Source: Moraxella sp. VT-16-12
Lineage (GTDB): Bacteria > Pseudomonadota > Gammaproteobacteria > Pseudomonadales > Moraxellaceae
DNA: 64,000 bases
Direction: 5' to 3'
NCBI RefSeq assembly: GCF_002224245.2
Contig: NZ_NKHK02000005.1
Span: forward strand, 62,001 to 126,000
A model generated the notes under the pieces. That model was not told the origin of the DNA, ran no database searches, and saw only the letters and a list, made by a program, of their open reading frames with translations. Positions 2,155 through 17,219 of this stretch are shown here, piece after piece (position 1 is the first letter of the stretch; every line of letters starts with the position of its first letter). A program made the position numbers and the translations under genes.

Positions 2155-3240
2155 ATGACCGACATCCATCTATCCAAAAGTACGCCACCACCCATAAATC
2201 CCTACCACACACCCCATCACGAGCCTAGTGTGCACGATTTTTATTTTTATGGCACAGGCACAGAGTATTTTAAAATATGGATTGTAAATCTGTTGCTCAC
2301 CATCATTACGCTGGGGATTTATTCACCGTGGGCAAAAGTGCGTCGGCTGCGTTACTTTTATGGCAACACCCAAATTGATGGACAGGCATTTGATTTTACT
2401 GCCAACCCCAAACGCATTTTGGTTGGGCGATTGATTGCTCTTGGGATTTATTTGCTCATTACAGTGCTAGGGCGGTTCTCACCCGATGTGGCAGTGGTAG
2501 GCTCACTGATTATCTTTATCATCATGCCTTGGATTATGCGTTCTACCTTGCGATTTCGGGCAAGAAATAGCCAATATAACAACGTATCTTTTGCTTTTGA
2601 AGGCTCGCTTGGGTCAGCATATCTCATCATGCTCGCCTTTATCGCAATATTTTTTAGCAGTGGTCTGCTTACTCCTTGGGTGTGGTGGCTGTTTAAACGC
2701 TATCAGTTTGACAACACCTATTTTGGGCGATTAAAATTTAACTTCAACACCAGCATTTGGGACATTTATAAAGCCACGATTGTCCCCATACTGCTACTTA
2801 TCATGGTATTTGTGGCAGGTGTGCTGCTATTTTTGGGAGTGGGTACAACTGGTGAGAATAATGACGCTGTTCTTGGCTCGGTTGTTTGGATAATGATTGG
2901 GGGGTTTTATTTTGCTACCTTATTGGTGCTGCCACTCATGCAAGGCTATATCCATCAGGCGATTTGGAGCAAACTGACACTTGGCGATAATGGGTTTGAG
3001 CTTGTTGATTTTAGCCCTTTAAAATTTGCACTTATCCAACTGACCAACTACATCGCCATCGTGCTAAGCTTAGGACTGCTTTACCCTTGGGCGGTTGTGC
3101 GTATGCACCGCTACAAAGTTGAAACACTAAGTCTGATTGCTTATGATAATTTTCATGCCATGACCACGCCAAGCGTTGAAAATGTCTCACCACTTGGCGA
3201 AGAGATTGGTGATGTGTTTGATTTTGATGTGTCGTGGTAA
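2155..3240 (+). CDS. DUF898 family multi-pass membrane protein (YjgN-like)
   Basis: Integral inner-membrane protein of unknown function. The family signature appears twice in related form: FYGTGTEYFKIWIVNLLLT followed by LGIYSPWAKVRRLRYFYGNT near residues 28-65, and LSLGLLYPWAVVRMHRYKVE near the C-terminus. Between them are about six hydrophobic helices. The open frame reaches back to a TTG at 2110, but the ATG at 2155 is a better start and gives 361 aa, usual for the family. No clear Shine-Dalgarno is visible. The next gene, an M48 peptidase, begins 4 bp after the stop, so the two are surely co-transcribed. This DUF898-peptidase pairing suggests envelope quality control, but that is inference. 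Confidence 0.8.
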   Translation: MTDIHLSKSTPPPINPYHTPHHEPSVHDFYFYGTGTEYFKIWIVNLLLTIITLGIYSPWAKVRRLRYFYGNTQIDGQAFDFTANPKRILVGRLIALGIYLLITVLGRFSPDVAVVGSLIIFIIMPWIMRSTLRFRARNSQYNNVSFAFEGSLGSAYLIMLAFIAIFFSSGLLTPWVWWLFKRYQFDNTYFGRLKFNFNTSIWDIYKATIVPILLLIMVFVAGVLLFLGVGTTGENNDAVLGSVVWIMIGGFYFATLLVLPLMQGYIHQAIWSKLTLGDNGFELVDFSPLKFALIQLTNYIAIVLSLGLLYPWAVVRMHRYKVETLSLIAYDNFHAMTTPSVENVSPLGEEIGDVFDFDVSW

Positions 3241-3244
3241 AAAT

Positions 3245-4249
3245 ATGATGGAACAACACACAAAAATTCGCTACTTTGATGGCAAAACCAGCACCGCTCA
3301 TGTTGCTCATATCACGCCTGTTTATTATCAAGGCAAGGTAGATGGCTTTATTGTCAGCTATCTTGGGCATGAAAAACGCCATTTTAACAAAGACTGCGAA
3401 TATTTACCTGCGGTGGCTGGCTCGCCCCATGTCCTGATGATGAAAGATGGGGCTAGGATAGAATTTATCGGCGATGTGCCTACATGGTTGGAACTTGACA
3501 ATCATTCGCTATTTACCAAAATCTCACACATGGAAAATCGCTGGACGTGGATTGGTGCCAGCGTCATTGTGGTGTGTGTATTTGTGTTTGGTATGTTTAA
3601 ATTTGCCATACCCTTGGCATCACACCACATCGCCCAACAACTGCCTGCTGATACCTTGATGACGGTGGGCAAACAAGCCGAAAGCTATGTGATGGACATG
3701 ACCAAGCCTAGCACCCTACCCAAAGCTCGCCAAGATGATATTATCGCCTTGTATGATAAGCTAGATGGCAATCCAAAAGCCAAAGTCATCGTGCGTGGTG
3801 GGGGCGAGATTGGTGCAAACGCTCTTGCCATTCCCAATAATACCATCATCATCACCGATGAGCTTATCAAGCTGACTGATGATGACAACCAAATTCTGGC
3901 GGTACTGGCTCACGAACAGGGGCATTTGGTACATCGCCACAGCCTAGAACAAGCCATCAACAGTCTAGGTGTCAGCGCGCTAATTGTGGTCATCACAGGT
4001 GATATGTCTGATATGCTGTTGACCTTACCTGCCTTACTGACCACCGCCAGCTACTCCCAAAAAGCGGAGATGGAAGCGGATAAATTTGCCATTGATGAGC
4101 TAAAACGCCTAAATATTTCGCCCATTCATCTTGCCAATTTCTTTAAAAAAATGCAAGAAACAAACGGTGGCGATGAAGGACATTGGTCAATACTTTCAAC
4201 TCACCCCCAGATAGATAAAAGAATCGAGCAAGCTCATCAGCATCAGTAA
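3245..4249 (+). CDS. M48 family zinc metallopeptidase, membrane anchored
   Basis: Predicted zinc endopeptidase of the HtpX/BepA/Oma1 superfamily. Residues 1-90 form a small N-terminal domain, and a single transmembrane helix lies near residues 97-118 (WIGASVIVVCVFVFGMF). The catalytic domain follows, with the zinc motif HEQGH (two His and the general-base Glu) around residue 222 and the downstream ligand in EMEADKFAID. STHPQIDKRIE near the end is also typical of the family. The start at 3245 (next codon also ATG) was taken rather than an upstream start inside the DUF898 gene. Length 334 aa. It lies 4 bp after the DUF898 gene. The substrate is unknown. Confidence 0.85.
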   Translation: MMEQHTKIRYFDGKTSTAHVAHITPVYYQGKVDGFIVSYLGHEKRHFNKDCEYLPAVAGSPHVLMMKDGARIEFIGDVPTWLELDNHSLFTKISHMENRWTWIGASVIVVCVFVFGMFKFAIPLASHHIAQQLPADTLMTVGKQAESYVMDMTKPSTLPKARQDDIIALYDKLDGNPKAKVIVRGGGEIGANALAIPNNTIIITDELIKLTDDDNQILAVLAHEQGHLVHRHSLEQAINSLGVSALIVVITGDMSDMLLTLPALLTTASYSQKAEMEADKFAIDELKRLNISPIHLANFFKKMQETNGGDEGHWSILSTHPQIDKRIEQAHQHQ

Positions 4250-4280: not shown

Positions 4281-4400
4281 TCAAGACGAATAACCCCTTG
4301 GATTTTGACTTTGCCAACGCCATGTGTCCACACACATACGTTCAATGTCAAACTCAGCCGTCCAGCCAAGCAAGGTTTTGGCTTTGTTAGTGCTGGCAAA
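4281..4400 (-). pseudogene. galE 3'-end relic
   Basis: About 110 bp are roughly 90% identical by eye to the last part of the intact galE at 16185-16310, including a 53-nt stretch without a mismatch. On the minus strand it still reads KTLLGWTAEFDIERMCVDT and the rest of the GalE C-terminus, ending in its own TGA at 4281. Similarity stops abruptly near 4400. The relic and the intact galE flank the giant gene in the same orientation, so it looks like a duplication or recombination scar. Confidence 0.85.
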
Positions 4401-4696
4401 TACGTTCTATACACTGTATCATGTGCCAGCCAAGATTTATTGGCAACAAACCATCGGGCTGCTTCAATAAAACTTATCATCAATTCATTGTTTGTTCTCT
4501 GATGTCATCAGTAAATTTTTTAATATGGCAGATTGACCATACTTCGCCATTGCTTGCTTTTGCTCACACCATTTTGATTGATAAACACAAAACAATGATG
4601 TTTTTAGTTGTTATTTGTTTTTAATAAAACAGTCATCATTTATCAAGTGGTGAGTTGAAGTTGAATTTTTGGTTATCAACATGACACTGATACAAG
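4401..4696. other. Intergenic stretch without a recognised gene
   Basis: AT-rich DNA between the galE relic and the stop of the giant gene. Only short open frames occur and none has recognisable similarity. A minus-strand frame running into the galE relic (4483-4259) continues the relic in a wrong frame and is not credible. No clear terminator was found for the giant gene. Confidence 0.5.
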
Positions 4697-7600
4697 CTAG
4701 ATAATGTTGTTATCTTTATCCACATAGAATGGGTGATTATTATTTGTATCATCCCAATAGATGTGGCGGTCAAGGTCATCTTTTTTATCAGCTTTGTCAT
4801 TAAAATCACCCAAACCATCATTATTATTAACAGCAACATCATTGTCTGCAATAAATAGCTTGTCTGTGGCATCTTCTATCAAATCAGACAAAGTGTTTTT
4901 AGTGATGTCAGCCGTGTGATTGCTTGAATTTTGCATTTGATTACCATAACTTTGGGCAGTTGTGCCACTCAAATCAGCCACACCCACATCAAAATTCATC
5001 CCATGACTGACCAAGCTTGATAAAGTTACAAAATCAGTAGTATCGCTAATATTTGTTGATGTATGGTCAATGCTACTAGTGGCTTTGTCCGCACCTTGCT
5101 TGGCATGAATGCTTATGGGGTTGCTTTGCATATTAAGCACATCAGCACCCAGATTTGTGCCATAAGCAGTTACTGCGTCTTGAATTGGTTGTAAAGCGGT
5201 TTGATTGCCAGCAGCAAAACCATCAGGCATATCTTTATCATTTTCAAGATTGTCAAGGTTAAGTTTAGACTTCTTAGCAAGCAAAAACTTGGTATCGGTA
5301 ACACTTTTTTCTGACACAGCTACAATAGTTGCAGTTGCATCAACCAATAGCGCATGAGTGTTGGAGACGGTGGAGATGTCCTTACCATTACTGTCGTATT
5401 TGGCAACGATAAGATCAAGTTCACGCACAAAACTAGCACCCGCACTATCAGTAACTTCAATGGCAAGAGCAACCTTTTTTTCGTTAGCATCATCAATACT
5501 AATACCATCTTTCAGCTTTAACACACCAGCAACGATCTCGAAACGCTCATCGCTGACTCGATAAGTGAAGGTTTCGCCGGGGTCGGGGTCGTGCACGCCG
5601 AATTTGCCGATAACATGCCCGGGCGTTTCGTCGGCGATGTAGTTGCCCCGAACGTACGCCCATTGCGGGGCGTGGTTGGGCTGCGGGCTGCCGACGGGGT
5701 TGGTTTCGGCGCTGGTGACGCTCTCTTTTTCGTCTGCGCCGTCGGTAAATTCGACGTGCACGCTGATGCGCTTGCCGTTGTTGGCATCGGTGAGACGGTA
5801 GCTGCGGCTTGTGGCGCCGTCAATGGCTTTGCCGTCGGCCCGCCATTGGTAGCGCACGTCGGCGGAGACGATGTCGCCGTCGTAAACGTGGGCGGTGAGG
5901 GTTTCGCCGCTTTTGACCAGGCCGCGGATAAAGACGTCGGCTTTGTAGTCGTTATTGCGAACGATGTTGTTTTGACCGAGGTTTTCGATGCCGCCGCCTT
6001 CGATGAGCTTGCCGTGTTCGGTATAACCGTGCGGATAGCCGCCGCCGTAGATGGTGTTGTTTTCGACGACGATGTCGCGGCTCATGTCGTCCAGACGCAG
6101 TTTGCGGATGCCGCCGGTGGGTCCGCCGGCGACGTTGGCGTAGTGGATGGTGTTGCCCGCCACGCGCCCGCCTGCCAAACCGCTGATCCAGATGCCGTCG
6201 CTATTGCCGGTGAAGGTGTTGTCTTCAACATTGATGTTTTTGGTGACGGTGTCGGCATGGGCTTTGCCGTAGTTGGTGTCTTTGCGGTTGAACTGGCTAC
6301 CTGAAACCACGACGCCGAAGCCGGTGTTGCCTTCGAAGCGGTTGCCGCGGATGTCGATGTCGGTGGTGCTGCGGCCGGGGTTGGGCTCGACGTCGATGCC
6401 GGATTGCGGCATATGGCCGCTGGTGTTTTTGAACACGGAATCCAGCACTTTCACGCCTTTGGCATCGGTGATTGACAGGCCCTGGCGGCGGTTGTTGTCG
6501 GCCACGACGTTGTAGAAGGTGACGTTCTGGCTTTGCGGATCGGCGCCGCTGTTGATGCCGACGTAGAAGCCGTCGCCCCAGAAGTCTTTGGCGGTCACTT
6601 TTTCGATCACCACGTCTTTGGAGGAGATGACGCGCACGCCGTAGCCGTATTGCCCGGTGAGACCCTTATGCTGGTCGCGTTCGCCGATCAGCGTACCGCC
6701 GATGAGATGGGCGTTGTCGGCTTTGTAGAAGGTGATGAGGTTGTAGCGCTCCTGATCGGTGGGAATGGCTTTGAGCACGGTATCGTCGGCAAGCTTCAAG
6801 ATAACGTTGGGCTTCATCATCAGCCCGCTCGGGTAGTTGCGCGACAGGCTGTGCGGCCCTTGTTGCGCCGTGGCGTCAATCATATAGGTGCCGCCCGGCA
6901 TTTCCACCACGCCGCCGCCCTGCTCGGCCACGGCATCGATGGCTTTCTGGACGGCGAGGGTATCGTCGGCCTTGCCGTCGCCTTTGGCGCCGTAAGCGGC
7001 GTCTTTGACATTGGCGACGAAATCCGTGGTCGGCTTGGGCACATGCACGCCAAGTTTGCCGTCCCCCGGTGGATTGGGAGCGGGCGGTGTGGGCGGGGTG
7101 CCGATATTGGGATTGTCTTTCACGGCGACGCTAAAGGGTTTGCTCAGTTCGTTGCCGGCGCGGTCGGTGGCAGTGATGGTGAGGTCGATATTTTGTTCTT
7201 TGCCATAGTCCAGCGTTTCTCCGCTTTTGAGCTTGAGGTGGCCATAGGCATCGATTTCAAAGCGGTTGTCGCTCACGGTGTAAACATGATCGTCGCCGCG
7301 GTCGCCATCCACGGTGCGCACGCGGCCTGCGCTGGCGCCTGCCTGGCCTTCGTCCACCAACAAGGGGCGGTCGGCGCGGATGTCTGTGGGCGCGGCGTTG
7401 TTGGTCAGGCTGTCGATGGGCAGGGTGGGTTTGCTCACCGCGGTTTCGGTTTGTTTGCTGCCGTCGGGGAATTCCACGCGCACGCTCAAAGATTTGCCGC
7501 TGTCTTCGGGGCGGATGGTGTATTCGCGGTTTGTCGCTCCTGCAATGTCTTTGCCCTCAATCTGCCATTGGTATTGGATGAACCGGGCAAGCGGCACGCC

Positions 7601-10600
7601 GTCGCCGTCTTCCACCTGGGCAAAGACGGTGGCGCCGGTTTTGAGCGCGCCTTTGACATAAACGGCGGCGTGGGTTTGGTTGTCGGCGGTGGTGATGTTG
7701 TGGCTGTCGACGCCAGTATTTTGCGCCTCGCTGCGCATTTTGCCGCCGTACATCACGTTATCGTGGATATGGACGTCGCGGGTGGCATAGGTTTCGATGT
7801 CGAAATAGGGAATGCCGCGGCCGTCATCGTGAATGGTATTGCCCGCCACTTCGCCGCCTTTGAGGCCGTTAAGCTTGATGCCGTCGCGGTTGCCGTGAAG
7901 CTGGTTGTTGAGGATGCGCACGTTTTCGATCACTGCATCGCCGTTGGCAGAAACGATGATGCCTTCGGCAGCGTTGTTTTCAAACACGGAATCGATGATT
8001 TCCACATTGGTCACTTTGCCGGGGACTTTCGTCTCGCCATCCGGACCGACCACCGGCGAATGCGCGCTGGGATTGGGTTCGATATCGATGCCAGCCTGCG
8101 GCGACACGCCGAAGGTATTTTTGAAAGTGGAGCGGATGACATTGATATTGTCGCCGTTGGTGATCGACAAGCCCTGGCGGGTGTTGTTGTCGGCGGTCAC
8201 GTTGTAGAACACCACGTCTTTCGGCGTAGGTTCGCGGTACTTGTCGCGTCCCAGATAGAAACCATCAGTGAGGAAATCCTTACTGGTGACATTTTCAATC
8301 ACCACATTGCGCACCGAATACATCAGCACGCCGTAACCGCTGCCAACCGCGCCACTGTCGCGCGTGCCCTGCAAAGAGCCGCCGAGAATATGGCTGTTTT
8401 CCACATCGCGCAGGCGGAAAATGACCGAATTGCTGCCCGTCTGCTGATTGATGTCGGCCTGCATCAAGGTATCGTCCGCCATGCGCACGGTGACGTTGCT
8501 GCGCAGATGCACGCCTTTGAGACCGTCAATGCGGTAAGTGCCGCCGGGAATATCCACCACGCCACCGCCCTTCTCGGCAGCGGCATCAATGGCTTTTTGG
8601 ATCGCGGCGGTGTCATCGGTTTGCCCGTCGCCTTTCGCGCCGTAGGCAGCGTCTTTGACATTGGCGATGAAGTCGGTGGCGGGTTTGGGCACATAGACGC
8701 CGAGTTTGCCGTCGTTGGGCGGTGTGGGCGGATTGGGTGCGGGATAGTTGGGGTCGTCTTGGACTTGTAAAGTAAAGGTTTCGCTGTATTTTTCACCGCC
8801 TTTATCGGTGGTAGTGATTTCCAGGGCGATGGTTTTTTCCTGCGCGAATTCGACTTTGACGCCGTCTTTGAGCTTGAGGTTGCCCTGGGCATCGACTTCA
8901 AAGCGCTGGTCGTTCACGGTATAGGTGTGGCTGTCGCCTGCATCGGGATCAACGGTGGCGAGTTTGCCGATCACCGCGCCGGCCTGGTTTTCAGGTAGCC
9001 TGTCGGCAGAGAGTGTGATGTCGGTGGGGGTTTGGTTGCGGATGTTGTCCACCGGCGGTGTGGCGTCGCTTTCGGCGCTTTCCGTTTGCCCCGCGTTGTC
9101 GGTAAAGCTCACTTTGACGGTGAGGGTTTTGCCGCGATCGGCGGCACTCGGCGTATAACGCGCCGCCGTTGCGCCGCCGATGGGCACGCTGTCGGCCAGC
9201 CATTGGTATTGCACATTCGCGGCTTTGCTGGTGCCGTTGCCGTCATAAAACTGCGCGGTGAGTTCTTCGCCGTTTTGCGCGTTGCCGCGGATAAAGACTG
9301 CGGCTTTGAATTGGTTGTCGGCAATGGTGTTGCCACTGGTGTCGCGCGGCATGATGGTACCGCCGTAGAGGGTGTTGCCAGTGATCTCCACGTCGCGGGT
9401 GGGGCGCGGATCGGGGTTTTTCACGGCATGATAATCGCCGTTGTAAAGACGGATGCCGCCGGAGTCATGATGATGGGCGTCGGGGTCGATGTGGATGGTG
9501 TTGCCTTTGATGCTGCCGCCTTCGAGACCGCGCAAGATGATGGCGTCGCGCGGGTTGCCGCTTAATGTATTGTTTTCAAATACAACATTTTGCACGCGAC
9601 TGCCCGCCGAGTTGTTCGCCACCAAAAAGCCAATGTGGTTATCGAGGAACTGGTTGCCGCGGATTTCCACGTTGCTGACGTCCTGCCCTGCATTGGGTTC
9701 AAGATCAATGCCCGCGCGCGGGTCGGTGCCATCGGTATTTTGGAAGATGGAGTTTAGAATTTTGATGTTTTTTCCGTGGGTAACGCTCAGTCCTTGGCGG
9801 CGGTTGTGATCCGAGGTGACTTGATAGACGGTAACGTTTTCGTTTTGCGTGGGGTGGGTGCTGTCTTTGCCGAGATATATGCCGTCGCCCCACATGTTTT
9901 TGAGGGTAACGTTTTCAATGGTGATATTGGTGGCGGCCATCAAGCGAATGCCGTGTCCAGCTTCGCCGTCGATGCCGGTGTGTGTCTCGCGATCGCCCTC
10001 CAGCGTACCGCCGATGATGTGGGCGTTGTCCACATTGCGGAAACGGATGAGATCGTAATGGGTTTCGCCGTTGGTGATGGCTTTCAGTACGGTGTCGTCT
10101 GTCAGACGCAAAATCACATGGCTTTTCATATGCAAGCGATTATTGACGGCGTCCACCATATAGGTGCCGGCCGGAATCTCGACGATGCCGCCGCCTTTTT
10201 CGGCCACGGCATCGATGGCTTTTTGGATCGCGGTGGTGTCGTCGCTTTGCCCGTCACCTTTGGCGCCGAACTCTTTGGCATTGGCGATGAAATCAGTGAT
10301 CGGCTTGGGGACGTGGACGCCGAGTTTGCCGTCATTCGTGGGCGGATTGGGCGTGCCGGCAATGGGCAGGGTCGGCACTTCGTATTCGGTGGTTTCGCGC
10401 ACGCCGCCGTCTTTGTCGAAGCTCGCTTCCACGCTGATGCGTTTGCCCGCGTCTTCGGGACGCACGGTGTAGGTCGCGGCGGTCGCGCCATTGATAGGCT
10501 TGCCGTCGGCGAGCCATTGATAGCCCAAGTTGCGCGGCGCGCCGTCGTCGTTGTGCACTTCGGCGGCAAGCGTCGCCCCTACTTTGTTTTCTCCGCGCAC

Positions 10601-13600
10601 AAAGGCTACGGATTCAAAGATGTTGCCCGAAACGCTGTTGTTTTGCCCGGCATCGATGATGCTGCCGGTTTTTACGGTGTTGCCGGTAACGGTGTTGTCA
10701 TGGCTGTTCGCGTTCAGCGCCAGCGAGTGCTGGCTGCCGTAGTACCAGCCTTTGCCGATGTCGCTGATGTGGTTGTTGGTGATGGTGTGGCCGCCGGTGT
10801 TGTTGACCACGATGCCCGCGCCGCCGGTTTTGATGGTATTGCCGTCGATGACAATGTTGCGGATGTCGGCGTTTTCAACGTCCGCCCTCTCCAGCAAGGC
10901 GATGCCGTAGCCGGTGTTGTTGTCGAATGTCGAGTTTTTGATGGTGACGTTGCTCACCTGTTGCTGGCTTTCCGGCTCAATGTCGATACCGGCCATCGGC
11001 GGCGTGCCGCCCTGTCCGCCGGTGTTTTTGAAGGCGGAATCCTCAATCAGCACTTTGTCGGCAGAGGTGATCGAAATGCCCTGGCGGCGGTTGCCGTCGG
11101 CAGCGAGTTGATAGATGGTGACGTTTTGGCTAGGCGTGCGCGGCAGGCTGCCGCTGTCGCTGATGTGCACGGCATCGCCCCAAAATTCGCGTGCGATGAC
11201 CTTCTCAATGACCACGTTTTTGGCGCTGGCAATCTTGATGCCCGAGCCCCATTCGCCTTGGTCATTCAAATGGCTGTGGCGGTCGCCCCGTAAAGTACCG
11301 CCCATGATGGCGACGTTTTCGGCGTTGTAAATATTGAAAATATCGTAGTGCTTCTCGCCATTGGGGATGACTTGCATCACCGTGTCGTCCGCCATGCGGA
11401 TGATGACGTTGCTTTTCACCTGCAAACCGGAAGTGCGAGGCACATCGCCCGGCCCGAGCACGCTGGTCGCCGCGCCGTTAATCATATAGGTGCCCGCCGG
11501 AATCTCGACGATGCCGCCGCCCTTGGCAGCCACGGCATCAATGGCTTTTTGGATCGCGGCGGTGTCATCGGTTTGCCCGTCGCCTTTCGCGCCATAGGCA
11601 GCGTCTTTGACATTGGCGATAAAATCAGTGGCGGGTTTGGGCACATAGACGCCGAGTTTGCCGCCGTTGGGGGCGGGGTATGTGGGATCGTCTTGGACGT
11701 TGAGCGTGAAGGTTTCTTGATAAGACGCGCCGCCTTGGTCGGTGGTGGTGATGTTGAGCTTGATGTTCGGTTCTTGGGCAAAATCGACTGTTTCACCGGC
11801 TTTGAGCTTGAGATTGCCCTGGGCATCTACTTCAAAGCGTTGGTCGCTCACGGTGTAAGTATGTTTGTCGCCTTGATCGGGGTCGGTGGTGGTCAGTTTG
11901 CCCACAATTGCGCCCGCTTGGTTTTCAGGTAGCGTGGTGGCGGAAAGGGCAATGTCGGTCGGCGCTTGGTTGGGTGTCGGTTGCGGTGCGGGATAGTTGG
12001 GATCGTCCTGCACGTTGATGGCGAAGGTTTCGCTGTATTTTTCACCGCCTTGATCGGTGGTGGTAATTTCCAAGGATATGGCTTTTTCCTGCGCAAATTC
12101 GACTTTGACACCGTCTTTGAGCTTAAGATTGCCTTGGGCATCGACTTCAAAGCGGTTGTCGTTTACCGCGTAAGTGTGGCTGTCGTTTGCATCGGGATCG
12201 ACGGTGGCGAGTTTGCCGACAATCGCGCCCGATTTGTTTTCAGGTAGCCTGTCGGCGGATAAAGTAATGTCGGTGGGGGCATGGTTTTGCGGCGTGGGTG
12301 CAGCATCGATGACGAGTTCGAGGTTGGCAAGTTCGTTGGGGTTGTCGGCAAGATCGACAAAAGCATCATCGGCCACGGTCACGCTGGCTTTGCCTGCTGC
12401 GCCTGCGGTGAAGGTGGCAGTGAACGTTTTGGCATCCACTTGGCGGAAGTTGGAGAGCGTGCCGCCTTGGACGATGACATCATCAGCAGTGAAGCCTTTG
12501 ACGGCTTCGCTGGCTTTGAAAGTGAGCTGGGTGCTGCTGCCGGGCATCAACATGGACGGCGTGGCGCTGATGGTAAGCGTCGGCGCGGTAGTGTCGGCAG
12601 CGGGTGGCGGCGGTGCGGGCGTGTCTTCGGTAACTTGGGCGGTGGCGGCGCTGGTCGGCGCTTCCAGATATTGTGTGCCATCGCTGAATTTGGCGCGCAC
12701 GGTGATGGATTTGCCTTTATCCGCATCAGTCAAGGTGTAGGTTTGCGCGGTTGCACCGTCAATCGGGCGGTTGTCGGCATACCATTGATAGGTGATGCCG
12801 TCTGCGGGCAGTCCGTCGGCATCGGCGGCTTTGGCAGTGAGCGTGGCGCCCACTTTCGCTTCGCCTTCGATGGTGATGGTGCTGTTACCCAGATGCGGGC
12901 GGCCTATCCAGGTCAAATTACTTTTTAATAACGGGTTTAGCGTTTCTATTACCACGCCGTTGCCATGATAAGTACCCGCCGAATGCATGATTTTGCCGTT
13001 GCCGATGTAAATCGCCGAGTGGTAGACGTTCATGAAGAAGTTGCCGCCGGTACCTGCACCTTCGGGGTCTTGCTTGGAGAAGAAGAGAATGTCGCCGACG
13101 CGGTAGTTTTCTTCGCCGCCGCTCTTGCCGTTATAAAGGGCGACCTGGTTTTTCCAGTACATCCATTTGAGCTGGGCGTTGGCGCTGTAAGGGCCTTTGT
13201 CGCCTTGGGGTTTATCTTGGAAGTCGATGCCCCAGCCGTAGGAGGAGGTGTTTTGGTTGTTGGCATAGGTGGTGTCTTCGAATTTCCAGCCCGCCATAAC
13301 CATATTGATAAAGGCCGAACAAGTGATGGCAAAGGCTTCTTTGCCACTTGGTGTTTTCACCATTTTGGGCGTACCCGAAACGTAAAGCGGCGTTTCACCA
13401 TTGCCGTCCCAGACGAGTTTGTCGCCGGCATCGAGGTAGGTTGTCGCCACTTGCAGCATGGCTTTGGTATTGGCGGCGCTGTTTTCGACGGGCAGAGTGT
13501 AGTCATCAAGCTGCGGCAGGGCGTATTTGCCGTTGGCAAGGGGTACGGCGACGCGGTTCAACAGCCCTTGTGCCGCATCGGGCAGGGTGTCGCTGATAGT

Positions 13601-16051
13601 GTAGCGGATGCCAATGTTGTCGTTGACGTGGTTGAAATCGGTGATAAGCGCTTTGTCGTCGGCTTTGAGCGGCGCAGCCATGAGTTCGGCGATATTGGCG
13701 AAGACGTGCACATTGTCGCCTTGCACGGGAGCAGTGGCATCACTGGTGACATCTTCGGAGAAGTTTTCGCCGTCTTGATAGATGACGCGCACACTGATGG
13801 TTTTGCCTGCGTCTTCGGAGCGCACGGTGTAGGTGGCCCGGGTGGCGCTTGTAATTGCTTTGCCGTCGGCAAGCCACTGGTATTGCACAACGCCAGGTAC
13901 GCCGTTGTCGTCGGTGATGCTGGCGCTGAGGTTTTCGCCCACTTTGGGCAGGCCGTTGATGACGACGTTGCCCGGCACGGAGAGCGGTATGCGCAGGCCG
14001 GTTTCAGCGTTCTGGTTGAAAGCGAGATCGGAAAATGCGCCGGCGGCAACGCGAATATCGCCACTGCCGACACCGGTGTAGGTAGCGGTGTAGGTGGTGG
14101 CGTCAACCTGGACGAAGTTGTCGATACGGCCGTTATTCACTTGAATATCATTGGCAGCGAAATTCTGCACGGGTTCGCTGAGTTTGAAGGTGAGCTGCGC
14201 GCTTTCGCCCTTGCCGGTGAGGAAGGGTTTGTCGGCGCTGATGGTGAGCACGGGGGCTGTGGTGTCCGGTGTGTTGTCGTTGCCGTCATTGAGACGTAAT
14301 GTACCGCTCTCGCTGATGTTGTATTCGGAGGCGTTTTCCGCACGCACTTCACTGCCATTTTGCAGGGCGGAGGCGGCAATGCGGATGATGCCGCTTTGTG
14401 CATTCAGTGTGATGCCCGCAGGAGGATCATTTCTGAATTGCCAAATGTGGCGGCTGCTGTCGAAGTAGGATTCCATGCTGTGTGCAGTACCGCTTTCGTC
14501 GTGAAAATGCACGGTGAGCGCTTGCGTACCGGCTTGCGGCGTAATCACGGCGCTGCCTTTTTCACTGCCGGCTTCCAGTTGCGGCGGCGGGGGAGGATCG
14601 TTGTCGGAAATGGCGGTGACGGTGCTGTTTTCTTGCGCGTCAATTTTCGCGCCTTGTGCGTTGGCAATTTCCACGCGGAAGGTTTTGCCGTGGGCAAAGC
14701 TGTTGTTGTCCAGCGTGGGGATTTGCAGAGTGGTGCTGTCTTCTCCGGCGGGGATGGTAACAGTGTACGAGGTGGCCTGTACGTCGCTGCCGTTGCTCTT
14801 CTCATGTACGACGTGCACGGTGAGGGTGATTGCCTGCTGGGCGGGTTTATCGAGCACCAGATTGTAAGCGGCGGACTGCCCTTCTACAACTGCCACATCA
14901 CCGCGCAGTGAAACCGTCGGCACATCGGCGGGCAGCGGCGGTGCATCTTTAATGGACAAAGCAAGTTCGGAAGCCTTGTCATTCTGGTTCCACGCCAGAT
15001 CGGAGAATGTGCCGGGGGCGACGGTGAGGCTTGCCTGCCCAGCTTTGTCTGCGGTGTAGGTGGCGGTGTAGGTGGTGTCGTCGACTTTGGTAAAGCCGCT
15101 GAGCGAGCCATTTTTGACAACAACATCATTGCTCTCGAAATTCTGCACGGGTTCGCTGACCTTGAAGGTCACCAGCGTGCTTTCTCCAGCGAGCAGATCG
15201 CTTTTGGCAATGCTGATGGTCAGGGTCGGCGGGGTGGTGTCAGCAGGTTCGGCAATAGGTGCAGTAGCGATACTGACAAGCTTCTCAATATTACCTGCAT
15301 TATCCTTATAAGTGGCTTGAACACTGATGGTGGCATCTTTGTCATCCATGATAAGAACATAAGTGTTGCCCGTTGCCCCCTGAATGGCTTGCCCACCTCT
15401 AAACCACTGGTAAGCGATAGAATTTGGGACACCATCACCATCAGCAACCGTAGCAGTTAGGGTTTGACCAACTTTAAGGGCGCCTTGTATGTTAATGACA
15501 CCCACTTGATTGAGCTGGGGAGCCGGCTGAATATCATCACTTATGCCATTTCGGTGATCTTTGGCATAATCTTTTAGGGCAACGCCAGCACCGGCAACAG
15601 CAAATGCACCAACAGCAAAAGGAGTGAGACTTATTTGCGTTGAGATGGCACTAGAAACCCACCAAGGGCTAGGCATGGCAAAACCACCCAAGGCATGACC
15701 TTGAATGGCGTTATCATCCAAATTAGTAATATAATCAACAACTTCGGCGCTATCAGGAATATAGTAATAATATTGACTGTTTTCAGCAAAACCGACAAGT
15801 CCAGTATCATCATAATTATAAAAGCCTTCAATGATCACATCAGGGCTGTGTGCCATATCATAAGTATAGATATGCAAATCTTTACCCCGACGCTGAGCAA
15901 TGATGTAGTCAGGAGCATGATTGGTTTGGGGATTTAATAGTTCATAATTAACCTGCGGAATGGCTCGAATGATGTGGGGAGTATTCGCTCTTGTGGGAAT
16001 GGTTTGACTGTGGATTAAGGCTTGATTATTGTGAATGTTAATGGTGAGCAT
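4697..16051 (-). CDS. Giant chimeric surface protein with BapA-like prefix, Ig/cadherin repeats, NlpC/P60-like domain and four beta-helix modules
   Basis: 3784 residues, no Sec signal. Residues 1-165 resemble the prefix of BapA/LapA-type adhesins sent out by type I secretion and end in a Gly/Ala-rich hydrophobic stretch (PFAVGAFAVAGAGVAL). Next come Ig-like domains with a YQW core (183-265, ~700-780, ~1060-1140 and after each helix module), Big-type Ig domains (~270-367, ~597-690, ~1150-1250), a Calx-beta-like domain (~374-484), an NlpC/P60-like domain (~780-1050; Cys911, His1011, His1023), cadherin-like repeats (~1260-1453, ~2344-2437, ~2887-2980, ~3464-3550) and four pectate-lyase-3-like beta-helix modules from ~1470, ~1907, ~2445 and ~2995. 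The last ~230 residues are low-complexity and acidic; no GGxGxD repeats. AAGG stands 7 nt before the ATG. The core (about residues 270-3510) is GC-rich, the ends AT-rich. The secretion apparatus is not in the window. Adhesion or glycan processing is inference. Confidence 0.85.
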   Translation of the reverse strand: MLTINIHNNQALIHSQTIPTRANTPHIIRAIPQVNYELLNPQTNHAPDYIIAQRRGKDLHIYTYDMAHSPDVIIEGFYNYDDTGLVGFAENSQYYYYIPDSAEVVDYITNLDDNAIQGHALGGFAMPSPWWVSSAISTQISLTPFAVGAFAVAGAGVALKDYAKDHRNGISDDIQPAPQLNQVGVINIQGALKVGQTLTATVADGDGVPNSIAYQWFRGGQAIQGATGNTYVLIMDDKDATISVQATYKDNAGNIEKLVSIATAPIAEPADTTPPTLTISIAKSDLLAGESTLVTFKVSEPVQNFESNDVVVKNGSLSGFTKVDDTTYTATYTADKAGQASLTVAPGTFSDLAWNQNDKASELALSIKDAPPLPADVPTVSLRGDVAVVEGQSAAYNLVLDKPAQQAITLTVHVVHEKSNGSDVQATSYTVTIPAGEDSTTLQIPTLDNNSFAHGKTFRVEIANAQGAKIDAQENSTVTAISDNDPPPPPQLEAGSEKGSAVITPQAGTQALTVHFHDESGTAHSMESYFDSSRHIWQFRNDPPAGITLNAQSGIIRIAASALQNGSEVRAENASEYNISESGTLRLNDGNDNTPDTTAPVLTISADKPFLTGKGESAQLTFKLSEPVQNFAANDIQVNNGRIDNFVQVDATTYTATYTGVGSGDIRVAAGAFSDLAFNQNAETGLRIPLSVPGNVVINGLPKVGENLSASITDDNGVPGVVQYQWLADGKAITSATRATYTVRSEDAGKTISVRVIYQDGENFSEDVTSDATAPVQGDNVHVFANIAELMAAPLKADDKALITDFNHVNDNIGIRYTISDTLPDAAQGLLNRVAVPLANGKYALPQLDDYTLPVENSAANTKAMLQVATTYLDAGDKLVWDGNGETPLYVSGTPKMVKTPSGKEAFAITCSAFINMVMAGWKFEDTTYANNQNTSSYGWGIDFQDKPQGDKGPYSANAQLKWMYWKNQVALYNGKSGGEENYRVGDILFFSKQDPEGAGTGGNFFMNVYHSAIYIGNGKIMHSAGTYHGNGVVIETLNPLLKSNLTWIGRPHLGNSTITIEGEAKVGATLTAKAADADGLPADGITYQWYADNRPIDGATAQTYTLTDADKGKSITVRAKFSDGTQYLEAPTSAATAQVTEDTPAPPPPAADTTAPTLTISATPSMLMPGSSTQLTFKASEAVKGFTADDVIVQGGTLSNFRQVDAKTFTATFTAGAAGKASVTVADDAFVDLADNPNELANLELVIDAAPTPQNHAPTDITLSADRLPENKSGAIVGKLATVDPDANDSHTYAVNDNRFEVDAQGNLKLKDGVKVEFAQEKAISLEITTTDQGGEKYSETFAINVQDDPNYPAPQPTPNQAPTDIALSATTLPENQAGAIVGKLTTTDPDQGDKHTYTVSDQRFEVDAQGNLKLKAGETVDFAQEPNIKLNITTTDQGGASYQETFTLNVQDDPTYPAPNGGKLGVYVPKPATDFIANVKDAAYGAKGDGQTDDTAAIQKAIDAVAAKGGGIVEIPAGTYMINGAATSVLGPGDVPRTSGLQVKSNVIIRMADDTVMQVIPNGEKHYDIFNIYNAENVAIMGGTLRGDRHSHLNDQGEWGSGIKIASAKNVVIEKVIAREFWGDAVHISDSGSLPRTPSQNVTIYQLAADGNRRQGISITSADKVLIEDSAFKNTGGQGGTPPMAGIDIEPESQQQVSNVTIKNSTFDNNTGYGIALLERADVENADIRNIVIDGNTIKTGGAGIVVNNTGGHTITNNHISDIGKGWYYGSQHSLALNANSHDNTVTGNTVKTGSIIDAGQNNSVSGNIFESVAFVRGENKVGATLAAEVHNDDGAPRNLGYQWLADGKPINGATAATYTVRPEDAGKRISVEASFDKDGGVRETTEYEVPTLPIAGTPNPPTNDGKLGVHVPKPITDFIANAKEFGAKGDGQSDDTTAIQKAIDAVAEKGGGIVEIPAGTYMVDAVNNRLHMKSHVILRLTDDTVLKAITNGETHYDLIRFRNVDNAHIIGGTLEGDRETHTGIDGEAGHGIRLMAATNITIENVTLKNMWGDGIYLGKDSTHPTQNENVTVYQVTSDHNRRQGLSVTHGKNIKILNSIFQNTDGTDPRAGIDLEPNAGQDVSNVEIRGNQFLDNHIGFLVANNSAGSRVQNVVFENNTLSGNPRDAIILRGLEGGSIKGNTIHIDPDAHHHDSGGIRLYNGDYHAVKNPDPRPTRDVEITGNTLYGGTIMPRDTSGNTIADNQFKAAVFIRGNAQNGEELTAQFYDGNGTSKAANVQYQWLADSVPIGGATAARYTPSAADRGKTLTVKVSFTDNAGQTESAESDATPPVDNIRNQTPTDITLSADRLPENQAGAVIGKLATVDPDAGDSHTYTVNDQRFEVDAQGNLKLKDGVKVEFAQEKTIALEITTTDKGGEKYSETFTLQVQDDPNYPAPNPPTPPNDGKLGVYVPKPATDFIANVKDAAYGAKGDGQTDDTAAIQKAIDAAAEKGGGVVDIPGGTYRIDGLKGVHLRSNVTVRMADDTLMQADINQQTGSNSVIFRLRDVENSHILGGSLQGTRDSGAVGSGYGVLMYSVRNVVIENVTSKDFLTDGFYLGRDKYREPTPKDVVFYNVTADNNTRQGLSITNGDNINVIRSTFKNTFGVSPQAGIDIEPNPSAHSPVVGPDGETKVPGKVTNVEIIDSVFENNAAEGIIVSANGDAVIENVRILNNQLHGNRDGIKLNGLKGGEVAGNTIHDDGRGIPYFDIETYATRDVHIHDNVMYGGKMRSEAQNTGVDSHNITTADNQTHAAVYVKGALKTGATVFAQVEDGDGVPLARFIQYQWQIEGKDIAGATNREYTIRPEDSGKSLSVRVEFPDGSKQTETAVSKPTLPIDSLTNNAAPTDIRADRPLLVDEGQAGASAGRVRTVDGDRGDDHVYTVSDNRFEIDAYGHLKLKSGETLDYGKEQNIDLTITATDRAGNELSKPFSVAVKDNPNIGTPPTPPAPNPPGDGKLGVHVPKPTTDFVANVKDAAYGAKGDGKADDTLAVQKAIDAVAEQGGGVVEMPGGTYMIDATAQQGPHSLSRNYPSGLMMKPNVILKLADDTVLKAIPTDQERYNLITFYKADNAHLIGGTLIGERDQHKGLTGQYGYGVRVISSKDVVIEKVTAKDFWGDGFYVGINSGADPQSQNVTFYNVVADNNRRQGLSITDAKGVKVLDSVFKNTSGHMPQSGIDVEPNPGRSTTDIDIRGNRFEGNTGFGVVVSGSQFNRKDTNYGKAHADTVTKNINVEDNTFTGNSDGIWISGLAGGRVAGNTIHYANVAGGPTGGIRKLRLDDMSRDIVVENNTIYGGGYPHGYTEHGKLIEGGGIENLGQNNIVRNNDYKADVFIRGLVKSGETLTAHVYDGDIVSADVRYQWRADGKAIDGATSRSYRLTDANNGKRISVHVEFTDGADEKESVTSAETNPVGSPQPNHAPQWAYVRGNYIADETPGHVIGKFGVHDPDPGETFTYRVSDERFEIVAGVLKLKDGISIDDANEKKVALAIEVTDSAGASFVRELDLIVAKYDSNGKDISTVSNTHALLVDATATIVAVSEKSVTDTKFLLAKKSKLNLDNLENDKDMPDGFAAGNQTALQPIQDAVTAYGTNLGADVLNMQSNPISIHAKQGADKATSSIDHTSTNISDTTDFVTLSSLVSHGMNFDVGVADLSGTTAQSYGNQMQNSSNHTADITKNTLSDLIEDATDKLFIADNDVAVNNNDGLGDFNDKADKKDDLDRHIYWDDTNNNHPFYVDKDNNII
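5920..7065 (-). repeat. Beta-helix module 4 of the giant protein
   Basis: Same architecture (AYGAKGDGKADDTLAVQKAI, RRQGLSIT, GIDVEPN) with a slightly longer C-terminal rung region. It is followed by the last YQW Ig-like domain and the cadherin repeat that crosses the GC junction. Confidence 0.75.
6294..6305 (+). other. Eikenella-dialect DNA uptake sequence (11/12)
   Basis: TGGCTACCTGAA differs only at the first base from AGGCTACCTGAA, the uptake sequence reported for Eikenella in the Neisseriaceae DUS dialects. It lies in module 4, on the strand opposite to the other three sites. Confidence 0.6.
7650..8715 (-). repeat. Beta-helix module 3 of the giant protein
   Basis: Nearly identical start to module 1 at the DNA level. 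Central rungs read TRQGLSIT and GIDIEPN. It contains a short extra loop with VVGPDGETKVPG not seen in the other modules. Confidence 0.75.
8990..9001 (-). other. Eikenella-dialect DNA uptake sequence (12/12)
   Basis: The minus strand reads AGGCTACCTGAA exactly. It encodes the RLPE of an RLPEN motif at the start of a cadherin-like repeat. Confidence 0.75.
9290..10335 (-). repeat. Beta-helix module 2 of the giant protein
   Basis: Same plan as module 1, with EFGAKGDGQSDDTTAIQKAI in place of the AYGAKGDG start and RRQGLSVT / GIDLEPN in the central rungs. It is the most diverged of the four at its start and is followed by a YQW Ig-like domain. Confidence 0.75.
10600..11660 (-). repeat. Beta-helix module 1 of the giant protein
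   Basis: Starts with a LGVYVPKPATDF-type linker, then AYGAKGDGQTDDTAAIQKAI and GGGIVEIPAGTY, the N-terminal pattern of pectate_lyase_3 domains. Further rungs contain RRQGISIT and GIDIEPE. Its DNA is closely related to module 3; a block of about 60 nt at 11537-11597 recurs without mismatch near 8588-8648. Confidence 0.75.
11924..11935 (-). other. Eikenella-dialect DNA uptake sequence (11/12)
   Basis: The minus strand reads ACGCTACCTGAA, one mismatch from the consensus, at the equivalent TLPEN site of another cadherin-like repeat. Confidence 0.55.
12239..12250 (-). other. Eikenella-dialect DNA uptake sequence (12/12)
   Basis: The minus strand reads AGGCTACCTGAA exactly, again at the RLPEN position of a cadherin-like repeat. 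Confidence 0.75.
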
Positions 16052-16184: not shown

Positions 16185-17219
16185 CTAGTTTGAATGATAA
16201 CCCTGTGGATTTTGACTCTGCCAACGCCATGTGTCCACACACATACGTTCAATGTCAAACTCAGCCGTCCAACCAAGCAAGGTCTTGGCCTTATCAGCAC
16301 TGGCATAACATGTGGCAATATCCCCTGCTCGTCTTGGAGCAATCACATAAGGCACGTTTTGACCAGTGGTGCTGACAAAGGCACCAACTAGCTCTAACAC
16401 ACTGGTGCCATGTCCTGTGCCCAAATTTATCGGCTCAAAGCCAAAGGCAGACGTTTGTTTGGCGATATATTCAAGCGCCTTAACATGCCCTTTTGCCAAA
16501 TCCACCACATGAATATAATCACGCACCCCCGTGCCATCAGGCGTGTCATAATCATCGCCAAACACAGAGAGTTTTTCAAGTTTGCCCACCGCCACCTGCG
16601 AGATATAAGGCATTAAGTTGTTGGGAATGTCGCTTGGGTCTTCGCCAATGGTGCCTGATGCGTCCGCCCCAATGGGATTAAAATAACGCAAGCTGATGAT
16701 GTTCCATGATGGCACACGCTCCGATTTTGCCAAGTCTTCTAAAACATACTCCACTGTGAGCTTGGACTGCCCATAGGGGTTAGTGCAAGAGCGTCTGGCG
16801 GTCTCCACAATCGGCAACATCTCAGGGTCGCCATACACGGTGGCTGATGATGAAAAGATGAAGTTTTTGACACCAAAGTCTGTCATCACTTCTAAAAGAT
16901 TGAGCGTGCCTGATACATTGTTTTGGTAGTATTTTAAGGGCTTTGCCACGCTTTCGCCCACCGCTTTTAAACCAGCAAAATGTATCACCCCAAAAAACTC
17001 ATGCTCGGTAAATACTTGGGTTAGGTGCGTTTTGTCTAGCACATCACCCTTAATAAAGGCGATTTTTTGATCAACAATCTGCTCCACTCGCTCTATCGCC
17101 ACAGGGCTAGAATTGGATAAATTGTCATACACCACTGGCTCAAAGCCTAATTTGATAAGCTCAATCAACGTATGTGAGCCAATATAACCCGCCCCACCTG
17201 TTACTAAAATTTTTTTCAT
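16185..17219 (-). CDS. galE: UDP-glucose 4-epimerase
   Basis: Interconverts UDP-glucose and UDP-galactose (and in some enzymes the N-acetyl forms), supplying precursors for capsule and lipooligosaccharide. It is a short-chain dehydrogenase/reductase of 344 aa. The NAD motif GGAGYIGSH is at residues 7-15, the catalytic Ser sits in FSSSATVYG, and the YxxxK pair is in NPYGQSKLTVEY near residue 150. An in-frame extension exists upstream, but the ATG at 17219 has AAGGGGA 5-6 nt before it and matches the family's N-terminus. It is last in the galU-pgi-ugd-galE string. A relic of its 3' end lies at 4281-4400 beyond the giant gene. Confidence 0.95.
   Translation of the reverse strand: MKKILVTGGAGYIGSHTLIELIKLGFEPVVYDNLSNSSPVAIERVEQIVDQKIAFIKGDVLDKTHLTQVFTEHEFFGVIHFAGLKAVGESVAKPLKYYQNNVSGTLNLLEVMTDFGVKNFIFSSSATVYGDPEMLPIVETARRSCTNPYGQSKLTVEYVLEDLAKSERVPSWNIISLRYFNPIGADASGTIGEDPSDIPNNLMPYISQVAVGKLEKLSVFGDDYDTPDGTGVRDYIHVVDLAKGHVKALEYIAKQTSAFGFEPINLGTGHGTSVLELVGAFVSTTGQNVPYVIAPRRAGDIATCYASADKAKTLLGWTAEFDIERMCVDTWRWQSQNPQGYHSN

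Follow-up and report, generated by a model that had tools for sequence, protein, structure and literature searches.

The window analysed here is a stretch of 64,000 nucleotides from Moraxella sp. VT-16-12 (contig NZ_NKHK02000005.1, positions 62,001 to 126,000 of the forward strand), in which a giant gene lies between galE and a gene for an M48 peptidase and stands last in a galU-pgi-ugd-galE-like run. This giant gene is a mosaic, with a GC-rich core enclosed by two AT-rich ends, the shells. It is read from the minus strand, so that its first codons have the high window coordinates. The locus and the segments of the gene are as follows.

3176..4249, plus strand: M48 peptidase gene, which adjoins galE in relatives
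4290..4398, minus strand: copy of the galE 3' end beside the M48 gene, 109 bp, 91% identical to 16197-16305 (blastn E 3.5e-39)
4697..16051, minus strand: giant mosaic gene, an open frame of 3784 codons
4697..5533, minus strand: low-GC C-terminal shell, codons 3507-3784 and stop
5534..15241, minus strand: GC-rich core, codons 271-3506
15242..16051, minus strand: low-GC N-terminal shell, codons 1-270, with a prefix domain and one YQW Ig-like domain
16185..17219, minus strand: intact galE, immediately upstream of the giant gene and co-directional with it, 1035 bp with stop (TIGR01179, 440.5 bits; cut-off 262.3)

The segments were placed by a three-segment likelihood fit on GC content at third codon positions (GC3) along the giant gene, which placed the two steps at codon 270 (window 15241) and codon 3506 (window 5533). 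Over all codons, GC3 is 0.35 in the N-terminal shell, 0.72 in the core and 0.32 in the C-terminal shell; without Met and Trp the values are 0.33, 0.72 and 0.31 (likelihood ratio 306), and at fourfold sites alone they are 0.39, 0.84 and 0.29. The steps are therefore synonymous and are not driven by amino acids. Among 100 block shuffles the largest value was 39.8, against 297 for the gene itself on a coarse grid. These sharp steps bear out an earlier note on this DNA, which had placed a GC-rich core at about 5525-15240 between ends rich in A/T-ending codons. The same note had called the ends like their neighbourhood, and this is only approximately true because the shell is more AT-rich (GC3 0.33, 182 of 548 codons) than the ten neighbouring genes (0.46, 2272 of 4989; z -5.5). 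Codon-use distance amounts to 0.31 between the core and these neighbours, 0.44 between core and shell, and 0.10 between the window core and the core of a related gene in a second Moraxella genome, G017.

The G017 gene has 3148 codons and sits at another locus between other genes. Its GC3 values of 0.46, 0.80 and 0.46, which change near codons 401 and 2992 (likelihood ratio 239; reached by none of 100 shuffles), indicate a GC-rich core with lower-GC ends there too. At the DNA level, the two genes are 86% identical over 1336 bp in the stretch that holds beta-helix module A (described below) and 65-88% identical in the other aligned pieces. An empty site could not be defined for the G017 gene, as the genes that flank it lie apart in relatives. 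The three-segment fit was applied to 11 other giant genes or gene parts altogether. A giant gene in G006 (L036:3786-17591) exhibits the reverse step, with a core GC3 of 0.21 and ends of 0.45 and 0.40 (ratio 150; 0/100 shuffles), and the remaining nine gave likelihood ratios of 10-32. Two of these nine were also shuffled: in G018 (L034:3-10322) the step is within chance, with 12 of 100 shuffles reaching it, and in G011a four of 100 did so. It could be argued that the GC-rich core arose without any transfer, by selection on repeats or by locally biased gene conversion, given that repeats are present and that giant genes can be compositionally odd. However, the rise from 0.39 to 0.84 at fourfold sites and the lack of a comparable step in nine of the 11 other giants or parts disfavour both causes, and the G018 gene carries homologous NlpC-like and beta-helix modules at a GC3 of 0.42. 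We thus regard an origin without transfer as very improbable.

Both junctions are in frame, and each lies in or beside a domain type that is present on both sides, as the earlier note had stated. The two domains concerned are listed here.

14966..15241, minus strand: first Big_12 Ig-like domain, directly past the N-terminal step (Pfam PF19078, residues 271-362)
5405..5677, minus strand: cadherin-like domain holding the C-terminal GC step, codons 3459-3549, from identity to G017

The N-terminal step coincides with a domain boundary, where the first YQW domain gives way to the first Big_12 domain, and the C-terminal step falls inside the cadherin-like domain. When five successive blocks are compared with G017, residue identity is 33/51 (codons 3400-3450), 26/30 and 21/26 up to codon 3507, then 18/24 and 16/19 past it. 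Over the same blocks, nucleotide identity is 0.78, 0.83 and 0.82 before the step and 0.62 and 0.65 after, and GC3 falls from 0.76, 0.83 and 0.73 to 0.25 and 0.16. Past codon 3549, two of 16 aligned residues agree. Since protein identity is held while DNA identity and GC3 drop within one domain, the domain appears to be composed of two lineages. As such, the C-terminal junction reads as an intradomain switch between homologous repeats, the pattern expected from homologous recombination.

The surrounding genes point to a second event. Ten of the 21 other genomes of the genus (G001, G002, G005, G006, G009, G010, G011, G015, G018, and G021) have galE and the M48 gene adjacent and convergent, with 8-250 bp separating the matched stretches; in G016 a galE end and the M48 gene come together at the border of a contig, and in the remaining ten of the 21 no such adjacent pair was found. 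The galE nearest to that of the window, at 87%, is that of G021. In the window, the copy of the galE 3' end closes with its own stop codon near the end of the M48 gene, like the empty site. From this adjacency and from the duplication of the galE 3' end it follows that the whole giant gene is inserted between galE and the M48 gene, and the graft may have been made before or after. This duplication pattern is what a one-sided homologous insertion at galE would produce, and transformation may have been the route. The earlier note had instead held that the core of an adhesin already resident here was exchanged by homologous recombination, without insertion of a whole gene, and had proposed looking at the same locus in other strains for an empty or different core. 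In-frame junctions in shared domain types and the intradomain C-terminal junction would fit such a replacement, but the directly adjacent galE and M48 genes in ten congeners and the 109-bp galE copy contradict it, and a close relative of the shell was not found in the 21 congeners. Replacement in place is thus improbable.

The core also contains sites of the Eikenella dialect of the DNA uptake sequence (eikDUS). Three of them cover Leu-Pro-Glu (LPE) codons.

12239..12250, minus strand: eikDUS AGGCTACCTGAA, spanning the LPE codons in a cadherin-like repeat
11924..11935, minus strand: eikDUS variant ACGCTACCTGAA, spanning the LPE codons in the repeat that follows
8990..9001, minus strand: eikDUS AGGCTACCTGAA, spanning the LPE codons in a third repeat
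6294..6305, plus strand: eikDUS variant TGGCTACCTGAA, within beta-helix module D and read from the other strand

Published work prints AGGCTACCTGAA as AG-eikDUS (PMC12061091), describes it as characteristic of Eikenella (PMC11316581), and gives eikDUS copy numbers of 3269 for E. corrodens ATCC 23834 and 2245 for N. shayeganii 871 (PMC3630211). In the genome under study (G000, 2.15 Mb) the dodecamer has two copies, both in the core, and none of the 369 genomes of the class that were examined has more than three. The window core and the G017 core each contain the decamer GCTACCTGAA four times, and it is absent from the other 54,291 bases of the window and from a 12,000-base G018 locus; synonymous shuffles of each core gave a mean of 0.003 decamers and a maximum of one in 2000, so that none reaches four. 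Genome-wide, four of seven decamers in G000 and four of four in G017 lie inside the cores, and G018, G021, G006, and G011 hold 3, 6, 2, and 1, respectively. The octamer TACCTGAA is enriched in the window (5 against 1.5 expected; 1/100 shuffles). Five other Neisseriaceae dialect decamers are absent from the window core, one of them, a Simonsiella-type decamer, occurs once in the G017 core, and Pasteurellaceae uptake signals are absent from both cores. The eikDUS is thus present in the core above chance, in two independent contexts and without genome-wide enrichment.

Composition, codon use (a distance of 0.31 to the neighbours) and uptake-sequence dialect together support the foreign origin of the core that the earlier note had claimed, and the sites indicate, indirectly, an Eikenella-clade member of the Neisseriaceae as its likely donor. 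The explanation that we consider probable is a mosaic of two lineages, in which a core from the Eikenella clade was joined to a shell of Moraxella type and the complete gene was inserted between galE and the M48 gene. The core block, about 9.7 kb long and comprising Big_12 and YQW Ig-like domains, an NlpC/P60-like domain, four beta-helix modules and cadherin-like repeats, would have come from such a donor and would have been joined in frame, through recombination between shared domain types, to the AT-rich ends of a Moraxella-type giant protein secreted by a type I system; insertion of the gene would have left the galE 3' duplicate. As a sub-case, the mosaic may have been assembled outside the species, for example in another Moraxella holding it beside galE, and imported ready-made, in which case shell and core alike would be foreign to this genome. 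The shell being more AT-rich than its neighbours, the insertion of a whole gene with galE homology, and the existence of such mosaics elsewhere, as in G017, would agree with a ready-made import, but a nearly identical mosaic was not found in the 22 genus genomes searched, and the chances seem to us about even.

Several observations weigh against this two-lineage reading. The donor copy was not found, and no Eikenella or other Neisseriaceae genome was knowingly among those searched. Three of the four sites in each core occupy the same LPE codons of homologous repeats and the fourth is a shared site in module D, so the eight eikDUS sites represent two independent contexts only. As a control, the reversed decamer occurs once in G000 and seven times in G017, against seven and four for the forward decamer; neither genome is therefore enriched, and only the location of the sites is telling. 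With two mismatches allowed, the 12-mer is found five times in the window against 3.4 expected, and 25 of 100 shuffles reach five. On the side of the shell, the window prefix is 36-44% identical to the 13 others compared (the G017:C14 prefix, 37-47%), and together with the AT-richness of the shell relative to the neighbouring genes (z -5.5) this weakens the case for an origin of the shell in the host species. RTX nonapeptide repeats were not detected with Pfam or NCBIfam at E 0.1. At the locus itself, the 298 bp from the galE remnant to the stop of the giant gene (window 4399-4696) match nothing in the 21 congeners, and an alignment with nine relatives does not discriminate between the two galE ends as the one that arrived with the insert.

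It is also conceivable that the core came from another GC-rich bacterium and that the eikDUS sites are chance or codon accidents kept by duplication of repeats. The position of three of four sites per core at one place of homologous repeats, the decamer's lack of genome-wide enrichment, and distant relatives of the cadherin-like and beta-helix parts in many groups would be compatible with such a donor. However, the sites use codons that are rare in the window core (CTA, 5 of 173 Leu codons, with three of the five inside eikDUS sites; CCT, 12 of 163 Pro codons), a second and unrelated context lies on the opposite strand, and the other dialect decamers are all but absent from the two cores. Moreover, the LPE codons read CTA CCT GAA in all six core repeats that have LPE, and a seventh LPE in the G017 shell, outside the repeats, reads TTG CCT GAG. 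We accordingly judge a donor outside the Eikenella clade to be unlikely, and retain that clade as the probable source.

The pieces of the protein were searched separately, as the earlier note had proposed. For the core, plasmid searches returned 17 records at the protein level (999-residue part), all below 60% identity, and six records at the DNA level (7542 bp), covering 1-2% of the query. Module D matched 343 phage records below 60% identity, and no match of module A or the NlpC-like module to viral contigs was confirmed. In named genomes, the module alignment placed G017 at 69% and the next relative at 45% among the best 80 of at least 290 relatives. Module D had any match in 21 of 299 family genomes, with G017 alone above 50% over most of the query; module A matched six of 390 order genomes at E 1e-10, with G017 alone close; the NlpC-like module matched only its own genome among 369 of the class; and residues 1180-3505 matched their own genome and three others at 37-55% over single modules among 398 of the phylum. 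One of these, G1362 (a 55% cadherin match), had no eikDUS in the three stretches read.

For the shell, the N-terminal 270 residues match 11 of the 22 genus genomes including their own, often at the starts of giant proteins. The C-terminal 278 residues match in two of the 22, their own and G017, where the first 44 residues are aligned; the last 234 found no match at E 0.001 in the 21 congeners, and the two ends searched alone gave no Pfam family at E 0.01. In a tree of prefixes, the window and G017:C14 pair weakly (87/95, long branches), and the G000:C43 and G017:C20 prefixes are 49-77% identical to the rest, the window and G017:C14 excepted. By these comparisons the shell is of a genus-wide kind, without clear orthology to a known resident gene. 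The G000:C43 prefix, 77% identical to that of G018:C33, belongs to a second giant-protein N-terminus (L041:8872-9942), which is cut by a contig end beside an exonuclease III-like gene.

Giant genes or gene ends lie beside exporter genes in G009 and G017 (genes named by eye in both) and in G000. In the last, a stretch of G000:C11 (L202:2-8930) encodes the C-terminal portion of a giant protein and, after it, genes of the TolC, LapB, and HlyD types. The HlyD-type adaptor scores 313 bits against a cut-off of 208.65; the LssB-type permease (682.2 against an NCBIfam cut-off of 693.1) and the TolC-type protein (80.8 against 225.15) are below the cut-off, each with a good Pfam match. The shell may carry the protein through this LapB-like/HlyD/TolC-like exporter of the genome. 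The protein resembles the type I-secreted giant adhesins that we take to be of the LapA/BapA kind in its size, in its Ig-like and cadherin-like repeats, and in a prefix domain that it has in common with giants of the genus, some of which lie beside exporter genes, but its middle consists of four beta-helix modules and an NlpC/P60-like domain, and an RTX repeat was not found. A second comparison is offered by DDxP proteins, modular type I-secreted giants that, according to PMC7730722, are extended by segments and grow by module insertion. The window protein differs from these, as its entire middle appears to be of other origin and its C-terminal junction resembles a crossover between homologous repeats.

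Pfam matches along the giant protein are to Big_12, beta-helix/pectate-lyase-like, cadherin, and, weakly, NlpC/P60 families. The five central modules are given below, A to C as delimited by the alignment of modules.

12902..13744, minus strand: NlpC/P60-like module with TCSAF and YHSAIYIGNG stretches (PF00877, E 6e-5), 68% identical to the G018 module
10652..11647, minus strand: beta-helix module A
9332..10321, minus strand: beta-helix module B
7682..8695, minus strand: beta-helix module C
6002..7045, minus strand: beta-helix module D

The NlpC-like module scores 23.4 bits with PF00877 when taken alone (cut-off 23) and 19.3 within the whole protein, and its G018 counterpart is below the cut-off; a structure model of the module was too poor (pLDDT 36) and was left unused. 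That G018 gene combines GH20, Spherulin4, weak NlpC-like, and beta-helix parts in one chain of uniformly low GC. The beta-helix modules have in common an aspartate in a WGDG-like stretch, N.RQG, and GID.EP. Modelled module D takes the beta-helix fold of the A-module of AlgE, the mannuronan C5-epimerases of Azotobacter, which, with the alginate epimerase/lyase 8ja4/8jaz, are among its nearest known counterparts. However, the DPHE motif, which we take to be catalytic in AlgE epimerases, was not found in the modules by HMMER alignment to AlgE4 and AlgE6, where it lies in an insertion relative to the module profile, beside the modules' WGDG-like stretch. The best sequence match in the PDB is the phage tail fibre gp22 (7qoj), with GEWG, WGDG, NRRQG, and DIEP in common, and phage tail spikes of phrog_2234 match all four modules; in contrast to these, the window protein is bacterial, has four modules per chain and begins with an exporter-type prefix. 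The giant protein is likely to be type I-secreted and to act on polysaccharide. Outside the cell, its beta-helix modules may bind or cut polysaccharide, possibly that of the own capsule or of a neighbour's matrix.

Mosaic adhesins are already known and their donors are rarely traceable. Here, the foreign part seems to be tagged with its source by the Eikenella uptake dialect, across families, and one junction is resolved to the inside of a single domain; among titles on type I-secreted adhesins, mosaicism, and exchange between Moraxella and Neisseriaceae, no description of such a mosaic was found. The composition step within the gene and the gene's insertion are distinct events, and the finding hints at the source of the graft and at how such surface proteins are rebuilt. 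If this is true, oral Neisseriaceae and Moraxella would draw on a common pool of secreted modules, and uptake-sequence dialects could trace grafts in genomes that do not use them. More tentatively, it is possible that uptake-tagged, polysaccharide-acting modules from Eikenella-type oral bacteria have been grafted repeatedly into Moraxella giants at unrelated loci. The giants would then act as sockets whose middles are swapped across families via transformation and repeat-to-repeat recombination, with the G006 gene, whose AT-rich core lies between host-like ends, reflecting the same process and another donor.

Elsewhere in the genome, a stretch encoding a type I restriction-modification system (L203:1937-7358; G000:C11:19937-25358) holds hsdR, hsdS, and hsdM, assigned by Pfam, with GC3 values of 0.71, 0.47, and 0.73, respectively. 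A comparison of this island with plasmids gave no clear source. Two further GCTACCTGAA decamers lie 750 bp apart in hsdS, and the stretch is possibly a second GC-rich import of similar source.
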